From: Aestuariivirga litoralis | GTDB lineage: Bacteria; Pseudomonadota; Alphaproteobacteria; Rhizobiales; Aestuariivirgaceae | Assembly (NCBI RefSeq): GCF_015714715.1 | Contig: NZ_WAHS01000001.1 | Coordinates: 2,217,659 to 2,281,658, forward strand | DNA: 64,000 bases | Reading direction: 5' to 3' | Shown: in pieces, positions 12,334 through 21,127 of the stretch | How the letters are laid out: each line of letters opens with the position of its first letter | How positions within the stretch are numbered: position 1 is the first letter of the stretch | Program-made: the position numbers and the translations under genes | Notes under the pieces: generated by a model | The model's input: the letters and a program-made list of their open reading frames with translations, nothing else | Told to the model about the DNA's origin: nothing | Database searches by the model: none

Positions 12334-13350
12334 TTACTCGACCCGGGTGGGCGCCGCGCCTGATCCTGCCGCCTTGGCAGGTGCCTGAGTGGGACGGCTA
12401 AAGAAGACCCGCACATGTTCCATCAGGTTCGGCACCAGGACAGAGCATATGAGCAATACGCCGATGACTGCCGTTTGGCGGTGCCCGTCAATATTCATCA
12501 GCGACATGCCGTTGCGCAGGTTGAGCACAATCAGGATAGAAAGCACGACGCCCAGCATGGAGCCCCTGCCGCCAAAAATGCTGACGCCACCGAGAAGTAC
12601 CATGGTGATGATGTCGAGTTCGAAGCCATAGGCGGCATCGCCGCGTACTGAAGAAAGGCGTGCGGCATAGAGCAAGCCCGCCGCTGCGGCAATGACACCA
12701 GACATGACGTAAATTGCGGTCTTCACCCGCGCGGTGCGCACGCCGGAATAACGCGCCATTTCGGCATTGTTGCCGATGACGAAAACCTTGCGGCCAAAAG
12801 AGGTGAAGTGCAGCACATAGCCAAGGATGACCAACAGCACGATGAACAGCACGATTGAGAATGGCAGTGGGCCCACCAAAGGATCACGCGCCAGGCCGTT
12901 GAACCAATCTGGAAAGCCATTGATGCCGCGATCTTCCAGCAGCACGCGGGCAAAGCCGCGGAAGCCGATCAGCATGGCAAGCGTTGCAACCAGCGAAGGA
13001 ATGCCGACATAGGTGATCCAGAACGCATTGAAGGCGCCAGCGGCGGCACCCACCGCGAGACAGATGGCAATCGCCATGACCGGATTCCAGCCACCTGAAA
13101 TCAGACTGCCGAAGACGCAAGCCGCAAGCCCCATCACCGAAGCCACGGAAAGATCAATCTCGGCGCTGATGATCACGTAAGTCATGATCAGGGCAACAAT
13201 TGCTTTCTCGATCGACAGCGTGAACAGGTTGATCTGGTTCTGCACGGTAAGGAATTCAGGAACGATCAGCGCATTGGCGGCCATCGTCGCGATCAGGATG
13301 ACGAGCAGCAAGCCTTCCCAGGTTTTGAAGAAGCCCTTCATCTCAAACAT
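12334..13350 (-). CDS. Sugar ABC transporter permease (RhaQ/RbsC type)
   Basis: Inner-membrane permease of a monosaccharide importer, 338 residues, with about nine to ten hydrophobic helices and the family segments ISAEIDLSVASVMGL and MVLLGGVSIFGGRGSMLG. It is the last gene of the minus-strand transporter operon and overlaps the other permease by 8 bases. Two distinct permeases plus a double ATPase match the rhizobial rhamnose importer RhaSTPQ, but rhaU and rhaK are absent here, so rhamnose cannot be assumed. The Ala/Pro-rich tail after the last helix is unremarkable. Confidence 0.88.
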   Translation of the reverse strand: MFEMKGFFKTWEGLLLVILIATMAANALIVPEFLTVQNQINLFTLSIEKAIVALIMTYVIISAEIDLSVASVMGLAACVFGSLISGGWNPVMAIAICLAVGAAAGAFNAFWITYVGIPSLVATLAMLIGFRGFARVLLEDRGINGFPDWFNGLARDPLVGPLPFSIVLFIVLLVILGYVLHFTSFGRKVFVIGNNAEMARYSGVRTARVKTAIYVMSGVIAAAAGLLYAARLSSVRGDAAYGFELDIITMVLLGGVSIFGGRGSMLGVVLSILIVLNLRNGMSLMNIDGHRQTAVIGVLLICSVLVPNLMEHVRVFFSRPTQAPAKAAGSGAAPTRVE

Positions 13351-14347
13351 CCTTCTTGGCGCGCAGCCGGGTGAACGACCGCGTCATGAACGTATCTGCC
13401 GCCACCGCAAGGATGATCAGCATGCCGAGCAGCGCGTCGCGCCAGAACTCGCTGATCACCTGCCAGCGCAGCAGGCTGTTTTCCAGCGTATCAACCAGTA
13501 CGGTGCCGAGCACCACGCCCAGCATCGAGCCCGAGCCGCCGAAAATGTTCACACCACCGACCACGATTTCACTGACTGATTTGAACTCAAAACCAAGCCC
13601 TGCGCCCACGGTGATATTGCCGAAGCGCACCAGGAACATGAAACCGCCCAGGCCCGCCATGGCACCGGAGAGCACAAAGGCCCAGAACACCACCCGCTTG
13701 CTGTCAATGCCGGACATGATCGCCGCATCGGGATTGGAACCCACAGCATAGAGTTTGCGCGCTGAACGCAAACGGGAAAGCGCGATGCCAAAAACAAGTG
13801 CTGCCGCCAAGGCCAATGCAACCGTCATGCGCAGATCGAAGCTGCCAACAGTGAAAAGGCTCAGCTGAGGAAAATCAGCGACCCATTTGGGCATGCTGTC
13901 GGTGGTGATAGTGCGTGAGTCTGAGTATTCAATCAGCAAGGCGCGGAAGATCGCCAGCGTGCCCAGTGTGACGATGATCGAAGGTACGCGGCCGTAAGAC
14001 ACCAGCGTTCCATTGATCGCGCCAAAGCAACCGCCGAGGACCAGGAAGGCCACGATAGTGAGAACCGGGCCCAGATCATAATGGCCCAGCATGTCACCCA
14101 TGAAGAAGGCGAGGAATCCCACCAGAGAGCCGACCGAAAGATCCACGTTACGCGTGATCACCACCAGCGCCTGTCCGATGGCGACGGGCAGGAACAAGGC
14201 CGCACTGGTCGCGATGCGGTTCAGCATGCGCGGGCTCAGGTAGTTATCGATCTGAGTCGCGAAGAACAAAATCAGCAGGACCAGCACAATGGCCAGCGCG
14301 ATCAGGCGCAAATTCTGCGGATGCACTTTTTGAAGAAGAGACATCAT
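13343..14347 (-). CDS. Sugar ABC transporter permease (RhaP/RbsC type)
   Basis: Second membrane subunit of the importer, 334 residues, with many hydrophobic helices. Family motifs are VITRNVDLSVGSLVGF near residue 65 and IVVGGVNIFGGSGSMLG in the C-terminal third. It overlaps the ATPase stop by 4 bases (start MM; the second ATG is equally possible) and the next permease by 8 bases, so all three are translationally coupled. It probably forms a heterodimer with the downstream permease. Confidence 0.88.
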   Translation of the reverse strand: MMSLLQKVHPQNLRLIALAIVLVLLILFFATQIDNYLSPRMLNRIATSAALFLPVAIGQALVVITRNVDLSVGSLVGFLAFFMGDMLGHYDLGPVLTIVAFLVLGGCFGAINGTLVSYGRVPSIIVTLGTLAIFRALLIEYSDSRTITTDSMPKWVADFPQLSLFTVGSFDLRMTVALALAAALVFGIALSRLRSARKLYAVGSNPDAAIMSGIDSKRVVFWAFVLSGAMAGLGGFMFLVRFGNITVGAGLGFEFKSVSEIVVGGVNIFGGSGSMLGVVLGTVLVDTLENSLLRWQVISEFWRDALLGMLIILAVAADTFMTRSFTRLRAKKDV

Positions 14348-20076: not shown

Positions 20077-20813
20077 CAAATTACGCCGATGTGCAATTTG
20101 AATATCTGCTGCCGTGGCAATTGCGCGAACGGGTTGCTTCACGCCCGGTGGCTTATATTCCGCTGGGCACTTATGAATGGCATGGCGAGCATTTGCCGGT
20201 GGGGTTGGATTCGCTCACCTCGCACGGCCTGTGCCTGCGTGCTGCGATGGTGGATGGTGGCATAGCCTTTCCGCCGCATTACTACGGCACAGGTGGCGGG
20301 CATGGCGCTTATCCTTGGACCATTATCAAAGACAATCCAGATGAAATCGAAAGCCAGTTGCACTTCACGCTGCAGCGGATGGAAACATTTGGCTTCAAGC
20401 TGGCCGTGTTGTTCTCGGGCCACTTTGCCGACACGCAGCTGGACATGATCGACCGCGTTGCCAGTCGCTGGAACAGCAAGGACGGCGCGCTGAAAGTTTT
20501 CGCTACGGCGGTGAACCGCATCGAAGGGCTGGCCATCGGGCCCGATCATGCTGCACTGTTTGAGACGACATTGCTGGTGGCGATGCATCCGGAACTGGTG
20601 CATCTGGAAAACCTGGCGGACACACCATTGCCTGTGGATGAGAATCCCTTCGGCACGCAACGTCACGACACAGCGCATCCGCTCTACGGCATTTTCGGGC
20701 CAGACCCGCGCAAGTTCAACCCCGCGCAAGCCAAACCGCTGCTTGATGCGAGCGTGGCCTGGCTGGTAAGCCAAGTGCGAAAACATATTCCCACGAAAGA
20801 CCAAAACACATGA
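20073..20813 (+). CDS. Creatininase-family hydrolase
   Basis: Metal-dependent amidohydrolase/lactonase-like family, 246 residues, GTG start overlapping the previous stop (GTGA). PLGTYEWHGEHLPVGLDS matches the family metal-binding motif (Glu, His, Asp), and GTGGGHGAYPWT resembles the second family block. The usual NGHGGN block is replaced by SGHFADTQ, so it is divergent and true creatininase activity is doubtful. In this operon it could open a lactone or amide made by the reductase. That role is inference. Confidence 0.82.
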   Translation: MTNYADVQFEYLLPWQLRERVASRPVAYIPLGTYEWHGEHLPVGLDSLTSHGLCLRAAMVDGGIAFPPHYYGTGGGHGAYPWTIIKDNPDEIESQLHFTLQRMETFGFKLAVLFSGHFADTQLDMIDRVASRWNSKDGALKVFATAVNRIEGLAIGPDHAALFETTLLVAMHPELVHLENLADTPLPVDENPFGTQRHDTAHPLYGIFGPDPRKFNPAQAKPLLDASVAWLVSQVRKHIPTKDQNT

Positions 20814-21127
20814 GCACCAACTGGATTGAAGCATGCGCCGCCGAGGCGATCCCGCTGGAAGACGTGATCCGCTTTGATCACGCCGGCAAGACCTATGCGA
20901 TCTACCGCTCGCCTGAAGACAAGTATTTCGCCACCGACGGGCTGTGCACGCACGAGAAAATTCATCTGGCTGATGGCTTGGTGATGGACCATCAGATCGA
21001 ATGCCCCAAGCATAATGGTGTGTTCGATTATACGACGGGTGCGGCCAAGGGCGCGCCGGTCTGCATCAATCTCAAAACCTATCCGGTCAAGGTTGAGAGC
21101 GGCAAAGTCTTTATCAGCGTGGCTTAA
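20810..21127 (+). CDS. MocE-type Rieske [2Fe-2S] ferredoxin
   Basis: A 105-residue soluble Rieske ferredoxin. The cluster ligands are CTH in GLCTHEKIHLADG and CPKH in IECPKHNGVFDY. The pattern IRFDHAGKTYAIYRSPEDKYFATDGLC is what I recall for MocE, the ferredoxin needed with the MocD oxygenase to demethylate the rhizopine 3-O-methyl-scyllo-inosamine. It overlaps the preceding gene by ATGA and is last in the four-gene operon, so it probably feeds electrons to the histidine-box oxygenase. No ferredoxin reductase is present here. Its stop shares a TTAA with the ureG stop. Confidence 0.9.
   Translation: MSTNWIEACAAEAIPLEDVIRFDHAGKTYAIYRSPEDKYFATDGLCTHEKIHLADGLVMDHQIECPKHNGVFDYTTGAAKGAPVCINLKTYPVKVESGKVFISVA

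Follow-up and report, generated by a model that had tools for sequence, protein, structure and literature searches.

A membrane di-iron oxygenase operon beside a rhamnose-type importer in Aestuariivirga litoralis may demethylate a methylated sugar

Described demethylation systems and the Aestuariivirga locus

In rhizopine catabolism, MocD is described as an oxygenase of the desaturase superfamily that converts 3-O-methyl-scyllo-inosamine to scyllo-inosamine (PMC2593844), and we take the layout of the rhizopine operon as given in PMC10107442. In marine Flavobacteriia, according to its abstract, the demethylation of 6-O-methyl-D-galactose is carried out by a cytochrome P450 with redox partners, needs an auxiliary dehydrogenase and yields formaldehyde (PMC10033563). 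Here we describe a nine-gene locus at positions 12334-21127 of a 64-kb stretch of Aestuariivirga litoralis DNA (hereafter the window), in which a membrane di-iron oxygenase of the FA_hydroxylase family (PF04116) is encoded together with an aldo/keto reductase (AKR), a creatininase-family hydrolase and a MocE-family Rieske ferredoxin, divergently from a DeoR-family repressor and a CUT2 sugar importer. We propose, with a little less than even confidence and from gene content and comparison, that the substrate of this locus is a methylated rhamnose-type sugar, which would be imported and then lose its O-methyl group by oxidation. Rhizobial L-rhamnose loci, a further point of comparison, have the layout rhaR-STPQ-UK with rhaDI.

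As in the mocDEF rhizopine module of Sinorhizobium and Rhizobium, the oxygenase and the ferredoxin lie in one operon by an importer with a sugar-type binding protein, and the ferredoxin scores above the MocE cut-off; paralogous clusters in the same genome add a reductase, GFO and TIM genes and rhizopine-like binding proteins. The likeness to MocD and MocE drawn in the preliminary description holds for the ferredoxin but not for the oxygenase, which belongs to PF04116 and not to PF00487, the Pfam number for the desaturase superfamily of MocD (MocD being known here from its published description rather than from its sequence). We use "MocD-type" for PF00487 oxygenases whose genes adjoin that of a MocE-family ferredoxin or share a cluster of this kind, as distinct from the described MocD itself. 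The window also has a DeoR regulator instead of MocR, a RhaS-like importer and an added AKR and creatininase-family hydrolase, and no mocF was found in the locus. The locus thus does not qualify as a rhizopine moc locus, given its oxygenase family, its binding protein, its regulator and its lack of MocA, MocC and MocF (ferredoxin reductase-, GFO- and TIM-type genes are on contig C2), and MocD-MocE survives as a working analogy.

The locus shares with rhizobial L-rhamnose loci a DeoR regulator and a RhaS-like importer, and differs in that its binding protein is under the RhaS cut-off, that none of its nine genes is rhaU or rhaK, and that the oxygenase operon is added. Among the matches listed (the best 25 of 219), the binding protein is about 41-43% identical to RhaS of rhizobial plasmids. 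The link to rhamnose is stronger than the preliminary description had it: the window has no rhaD, but rhaD adjoins the corresponding block in a Hyphomicrobiales contig (L038), and rhaI, rhaD and a kinase are encoded elsewhere in the A. litoralis genome.

An open reading frame check found each of the nine genes unbroken (the longest reading frame of the ATPase has a start further upstream), so that the divergent DeoR gene and RhaSTPQ-type importer of the preliminary description are intact, with the reservation that the binding protein does not reach the RhaS cut-off. As had been described, the four plus-strand genes are joined by overlapping starts and stops, read directly as GTGA at 19102-19105, GTGA at 20073-20076 and ATGA at 20810-20813. 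Conservation of this four-gene order, raised in the same description, was not borne out as such: the exact order (oxygenase-AKR-creatininase-ferredoxin) was in none of the other loci fetched, but its sub-blocks recur, with oxygenase and importer together in L038 and L083 and AKR and creatininase together in L119, L131, L148 and L149. This recurrence suggests that the arrangement in the window is more than chance.

The sequence establishes which genes are present, how they overlap, to which families they belong and that the operator region is conserved; we infer every chemical step. The binding protein would capture a methylated 6-deoxyhexose, and the DeoR repressor would act on the divergent region that the two operons share and so govern both of them. 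The oxygenase would hydroxylate the O-methyl carbon to give R-O-CH2OH, with electrons from the MocE-family ferredoxin and a reductase encoded elsewhere in the genome. Oxidation of this hemiacetal by the AKR would give a formate ester, which the creatininase-family hydrolase would split into free sugar and formate, with little formaldehyde escaping. One oxidoreductase and one hydrolase fit this chemistry from hemiacetal through formate ester to formate, but the AKR-creatininase step is the least certain and the weakest part of the proposal. The freed rhamnose-type sugar would pass to RhaI, the FGGY kinase and RhaD of the separate locus in the same genome.

Like the P450 route, this one would demethylate a methoxy sugar by oxidation and draw on redox partners and an auxiliary dehydrogenase, and it would differ in using a histidine-box di-iron enzyme instead of a cytochrome P450; in the P450 route the product is formaldehyde and the dehydrogenase a zinc alcohol dehydrogenase, and the abstract names no creatininase (PMC10033563). 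Relative to MocDE-like demethylation, the apparently new elements are the different oxygenase family, the rhamnose-type importer and the coupled AKR-creatininase pair. Among the open-licence papers listed, as judged by titles and abstract openings, none connects PF04116 oxygenases or creatininase-family proteins with the breakdown of sugar or inositol methyl ethers, treats a PF04116 oxygenase together with a creatininase, or deals with O-methylrhamnose catabolism, and absence from such sources is weak evidence. The gene-level map of methyl-ether breakdown for rhamnose-type sugars and inositols (e.g. pinitol) looks poor. If correct, the proposal would suggest a role for a large group annotated as "sterol desaturase family protein", offer a marker for demethylation operons (a MocE ferredoxin with PanB-like, PurU or AKR-creatininase genes) and set a membrane di-iron system beside the P450 that acts on 6-O-methyl-galactose.

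The importer, the oxygenase family and their genomic company

Against other NCBIfam models, the binding protein scores 134.9 bits for LsrB (NF011937, cut-off 384) and 19.6 bits for the rhizopine binding protein (NF052284, cut-off 420). It is 76% identical to its counterpart in L038, 72% (72-75%) to that of Shinella (L145), 65% to that of L083 and 39% to that of a congener (L121). On identity, the binding proteins of the window, L038, L083 and Shinella are one subfamily (65-76%), apart from L121 and rhizobial RhaS. Within its own genome the binding protein has one other match, which is weak (30% over residues 9-172, 30.7 bits), and the window importer is, as far as sequence similarity goes, the only clear rhamnose-type sugar importer of the genome.

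In L038, a divergent rhaD truncated at the contig end comes first, and then the genes for the oxygenase, DeoR, the binding protein, the ATPase and two permeases, with 68% identity to the window for the oxygenase and 69% for DeoR (ATPase and permeases in Table 1). The L038 rhaD is over two RhaD models (960.4 bits for TIGR02632, cut-off 567.75). Outside the window, the A. litoralis genome has rhaI (813.8 bits, cut-off 646.75), rhaD (1034.9 bits, cut-off 567.75), an FGGY kinase and a second DeoR gene together, and neither a CUT2 permease nor a CUT2 binding protein was found within ~7 kb on either side of this rhaID locus. The rhaD-oxygenase-importer block of L038, taken with this importer-less rhaID locus, points to a rhamnose-type sugar, and we infer that the window importer feeds such a sugar into the rhaI/rhaD/kinase pathway. 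At the matching place in congener G247 (L121), a RhaS-like binding protein and an ATPase lie next to DeoR.

PF04116 is the only Pfam family that the oxygenase matches, and no NCBIfam model matched it. Histidines 189, 194, 198, 207, 210, 211, 225, 239, 264, 285, 288 and 289 are invariant across 24 sequences. A sequence search up to E 1 found no relative of solved structure, and comparison of the predicted model (mean pLDDT 74.6) with the PDB yielded one match, at E 9.6, which is not credible; this outcome is uninformative and no sign of a new fold. The preliminary description had allowed that the oxygenase might group with lipid hydroxylases; in a partial check, the two other PF04116 proteins of the same genome scored 16.6 bits and nothing against the oxygenase family profile.

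Four further members of the oxygenase family are encoded in the A. litoralis genome, in clusters with FrcBCA-type importers. Three of these paralogues are in one ~20-kb stretch of contig C2 (L006:11428 to L007:11919, ~526.4-546.9 kb), which also holds a MocD-type PF00487 oxygenase, a MocE-like ferredoxin and a reductase (one of each), PurU, a PanB-like gene, IolG, two CUT2 importers (the one binding protein tested being rhizopine-like) and several genes of the TIM-barrel and GFO types. Around the fourth (L008) are an importer with a rhizopine-like binding protein, a MocE-like ferredoxin, a PanB-like gene and IolG. Two binding proteins of the paralogue clusters were tested, and both match the rhizopine model best, at 164.1 and 171.3 bits (cut-off 420). 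The clusters' IolG proteins score 438.7 and 432.8 bits (cut-off 355) and PurU 330.9 bits (cut-off 285.95), and there are two PanB-like genes. That the paralogues keep company with a MocE ferredoxin, a reductase, a MocD-type oxygenase, one-carbon genes (PanB-like and PurU) and inositol dehydrogenases argues for O-demethylation, and we read the PF04116 and MocD-type PF00487 enzymes as two unrelated oxygenase families with the same kind of job, the oxidative removal of O-methyl groups from small polyols. Comparison thus supports the earlier view of an imported sugar or cyclitol derivative that is attacked oxidatively with a MocE ferredoxin, with O-demethylation probable. As an observation in its own right, the C2 stretch is possibly an island for the demethylation of O-methyl-cyclitols at several positions.

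We compared marker genes near to (within 3 kb) and far from (6-9 kb) the oxygenases, using 142 oxygenase genes reduced to 78 at 75% identity, with truncated loci kept in and with L131, L145, L146, L148, L149, L154 and L155 left out as they had been fetched through the hydrolase or other queries; the oxygenase loci are the best 79 distinct loci of 545 from the contig scan. PanB-like genes were found near 11 times and far once (p 0.016, uncorrected), reductases 8 and 1 times (p 0.048), and ferredoxins and CUT2 binding proteins 12 and 3 times (p 0.068 each). Six of the 12 PanB-like genes within 6 kb are on the oxygenase strand and at most 110 bases away, and such a gene is immediately ahead of the oxygenase in Mesorhizobium (L150), Bradyrhizobium (L152) and Neotabrizicola (L153). 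R. johnstonii 3841 has a PanB-like gene after those for a MocD-type oxygenase, MocE and a reductase; Acidiphilium has a MocD-type operon without one.

The window ferredoxin is 73% identical to the ferredoxin of a MocD-type operon (L154). In a ferredoxin tree of 27 of 42 sequences, near-identical ones having been removed, this L154 ferredoxin, one of three beside MocD-type oxygenases, groups with the ferredoxins of PF04116 operons, and the remaining two form a pair. Across the 64-kb window no profile match was found to a reductase, PanB-like, PurU, GFO/IDH/MocA, TIM or MocD-type gene. The lack of a ferredoxin reductase that had been reported thus holds for the window but not for the genome, which encodes one near a paralogous MocE-like ferredoxin on contig C2 (L007:5412-6704).

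The AKR-creatininase pair and competing explanations

Residues D51, Y56, K82 and H129 of the AKR are invariant in eight sequences. The hydrolase meets the Pfam gathering score and has the fold and the metal-site residues of the creatininase superfamily (creatininase, MftE, IolN), from which it differs in being below the NCBIfam cut-offs of all three of these named relatives (55 bits against 235 for creatininase sensu stricto, TIGR04448) and in having A or P at the position of creatininase E122. Its identification as the diketo-inositol hydrolase IolN was rejected at 28.4 bits against a cut-off of 245 (NF041098). ArfB, a deformylase, is in the creatininase superfamily.

The pair is translationally coupled by a four-base overlap in the window and in L131, L148 and L149. 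Together with a PF04116 oxygenase it occurs in one cluster in two congeners (L119 and L148) and on a plasmid of Fuscovulum ytuae (L131), which also carries an FrcBCA-type importer and inositol-dehydrogenase-like genes below cut-offs; these three are cyclitol-type loci in which the pair lies with GFO/IDH/MocA and TIM-barrel genes. In L072, AKR and creatininase genes are in a larger cluster with an oxygenase, a ferredoxin and a reductase without being adjacent. A one-strand cluster of Paenibacillus cellulosilyticus (L146) has a MocD-type oxygenase, a MocE-like ferredoxin, a reductase, an AKR (37% identity) and a creatininase-family protein (29%), which at these identities are the same pair by family only; upstream are genes for a rhamnose mutarotase, an SDR, an MR_MLE enzyme, a zinc alcohol dehydrogenase, an amidohydrolase and an aldose epimerase. 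Among the genomes sampled, homologues of the hydrolase at E up to 1e-40 were found in 2 of 297 from the order, 1 of 385 from the class and 4 of 37 from the genus, A. litoralis itself being counted in each, and at E up to 1e-30 in 1 of 398 genomes of the phylum, namely its own. There are 767 database homologues at E up to 1e-20, of which the best 120 were listed, without genomic context.

Since the pair accompanies either oxygenase family, and does so in loci of the sugar type as well as the cyclitol type, its target may be the part these substrates share, the methyl group. A more general possibility, which we regard as improbable though worth stating, is a formaldehyde-sparing demethylation in which the oxygenase would form a hydroxymethyl ether, the AKR a formate ester and a creatininase-fold esterase formate and sugar, with the pair serving as a portable one-carbon module for PF04116 and MocD-type oxygenases in 6-deoxysugar and cyclitol pathways alike.

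The chief rival to the formate-ester step places the pair on the sugar skeleton: the oxygenase would demethylate or hydroxylate the sugar, the AKR would be an aldose or cyclitol dehydrogenase, and the hydrolase would be a lactonase or a ring-opener like IolN, the ring-opening hydrolase of the Thermotoga-type inositol route. It draws on the nearest solved relatives of the AKR, which include IolS and L-galactose dehydrogenase, on the weak IolN match of the hydrolase and on the GFO/IDH/MocA and TIM-barrel neighbours of the pair in the cyclitol-type loci. That match nevertheless stays far from its cut-off, no GFO or TIM profile match was found in the window, the pair is found in sugar-type and cyclitol-type loci alike, and in the Paenibacillus cluster a sugar skeleton could be served by the SDR, the amidohydrolase and the MR_MLE enzyme encoded there, so that the pair would be redundant; we consider this route unlikely. 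It is also doubtful, and to a greater degree, that the oxygenase simply hydroxylates an unmethylated sugar or some other imported small molecule with no demethylation. PF04116 enzymes are known mostly as hydroxylases, a PanB-like or PurU match is missing from the window and the Shinella importer relative has no oxygenase, but PanB-like and PurU genes adjoin relatives of the oxygenase, MocD-type enzymes take its place across clusters, and the paralogue clusters carry IolG and rhizopine-like binding proteins. That the oxygenase operon acts on a lipid or another cellular compound and merely lies beside a rhamnose-type importer seems very improbable: it would accord with the Pfam name, fatty acid hydroxylase, and with the scarcity of CUT2 ATPases around oxygenases given below, whereas the oxygenase-importer block is kept in L038 and L083, its operator region is shared in L038, and the other two PF04116 proteins of the genome stand apart in the profile comparison above.

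Several observations weigh against the proposed uptake and demethylation of a methylated rhamnose-type sugar. RhaS is the best NCBIfam match of the binding protein, yet its score is under the cut-off (Table 1). About 14 kb from the rhaID locus there is a CUT2-type importer set of another subfamily (L225:589-5236, contig C1), which could be a competing candidate for the import of plain rhamnose. The Shinella importer cluster (L145) contains MR_MLE, GFO, TIM and rhamnose mutarotase genes and no oxygenase, and hence the window importer need not carry a methylated sugar. None of the enrichments near the oxygenases (PanB-like genes, reductases, ferredoxins, CUT2 binding proteins) survives correction for eleven markers, and no near/far enrichment was seen for CUT2 ATPases (15 vs 12), AKR (3 vs 2), GFO (7 vs 4), TIM (3 vs 1), PurU (1 vs 1) or MocD-type genes (4 vs 1). 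A CUT2 ATPase is missing within 6 kb of 57 of the 78 oxygenases, and the family may therefore have wider duties. No AKR, creatininase or ferredoxin gene was found in L083 (~10 kb either side) or in L038 (up to the contig ends). In L149 (10343-12090), the AKR-creatininase pair is beside hydantoinase A/B, a DHDPS-like aldolase and a peptide-type importer, with no oxygenase in the stretch examined; this pair without an oxygenase, and the oxygenase-importer blocks of L038 and L083 without the pair, argue against an obligate link. The idea that PanB-like genes and the AKR-creatininase pair are mutually exclusive alternatives was rejected, as it has no statistical support, the numbers are too small and L072 has both. 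Finally, the operator motif described below was not found, at up to 3 mismatches, in L224, L225 or L006-L008 of the same genome, and its absence from L224 and L225 leaves co-regulation of the window operon with rhaID unsupported.

Regulatory region, coordinates and minor observations

The DeoR protein is 47% identical to the DeoR of the rhaID locus. The conserved region beside deoR (Table 1) aligns to L038 with a local score of 70, whereas 300 shuffles reached no more than 26 and 1500 random genomic stretches no more than 31; the same comparison on L083 and Shinella (L145) gave nothing (scores 20 and 18). In L038, the oxygenase-importer block and rhaD have the operator region in common. As the motif adjoins deoR and its weaker inverted pair adjoins the oxygenase, a single regulator may act on both operons. 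Our first operator candidate, a 28-bp palindrome at 17943-17970, was set aside, since the shorter motif kept in L038 is better supported.

Table 1. Genes and putative regulatory elements of the locus, with positions in the window.
Feature	Position	Strand	Evidence
CUT2 sugar importer permease (RhaP/RhaQ-like)	12334-13350	-	PF02653 122.8 bits; 70% identity to L038 orthologue
Second CUT2 permease	13343-14347	-	PF02653 114.5 bits; 66% identity to L038
CUT2 double ATPase (RhaT-like)	14344-15855	-	PF00005 in two stretches; 72% identity to L038
Periplasmic binding protein, RhaS-like subfamily (Peripla_BP_4)	15938-16984	-	RhaS TIGR02637 297.8 bits, cut-off 342.25
DeoR-family repressor (HTH_DeoR/DeoRC)	17026-17838	-	PF08220 and PF00455
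Operator-like conserved region beside deoR, contains TCATATTGCATCGCAA at 17886	17870-17919	.	44/50 bases identical to L038 2116-2165, inverted
Second, weaker inverted pair of operator motif, upstream of oxygenase	17979-18019	.	inverted repeat I1 (88%, arms of 17 nt); 2 and 3 mismatches to the motif
Membrane di-iron oxygenase, FA_hydroxylase family; predicted sugar O-demethylase	18080-19105	+	PF04116 64 bits, cut-off 31
Aldo/keto reductase (Aldo_ket_red); start overlaps oxygenase stop	19102-20076	+	PF00248 201.2 bits
Creatininase-family metal hydrolase	20073-20813	+	PF02633 98.1 bits, cut-off 31.3
MocE-family Rieske [2Fe-2S] ferredoxin	20810-21127	+	MocE_fam_FeS TIGR02377 175.5 bits, cut-off 136.15

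A tRNA-Arg gene (ccg) at 12213-12290 of the window adjoins the importer end of the locus, and on the other side are urease genes, which are arranged differently in congener G247. No clean empty insertion site was found in the urease flank of 15 congeners (out of 23 with a ureG match, A. litoralis itself excluded); the operon is present there in 0 of the 15, and G247, the closest of them, is rearranged at this flank.

Within the sample of the order, the oxygenase has homologues at E up to 1e-60 in 33 of 297 genomes. Loci of Caldilineaceae (L110, L111, L115) have two genes of the oxygenase family a short distance apart and next to a GFO-like gene, and no MocE ferredoxin was found in them. In SAR116 and other Alphaproteobacteria (L097, L106, L107) and in L084, the oxygenase is followed by a gene of 331-332 amino acids, with no CUT2 importer seen nearby; the beginning of this gene resembles, by eye, zinc-type quinone oxidoreductases in L097 and L084. 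This suggests that oxygenases with such a neighbour represent another branch of function. An oxygenase with 65% identity was also found in a eukaryote protein set (P0063), possibly as bacterial contamination.

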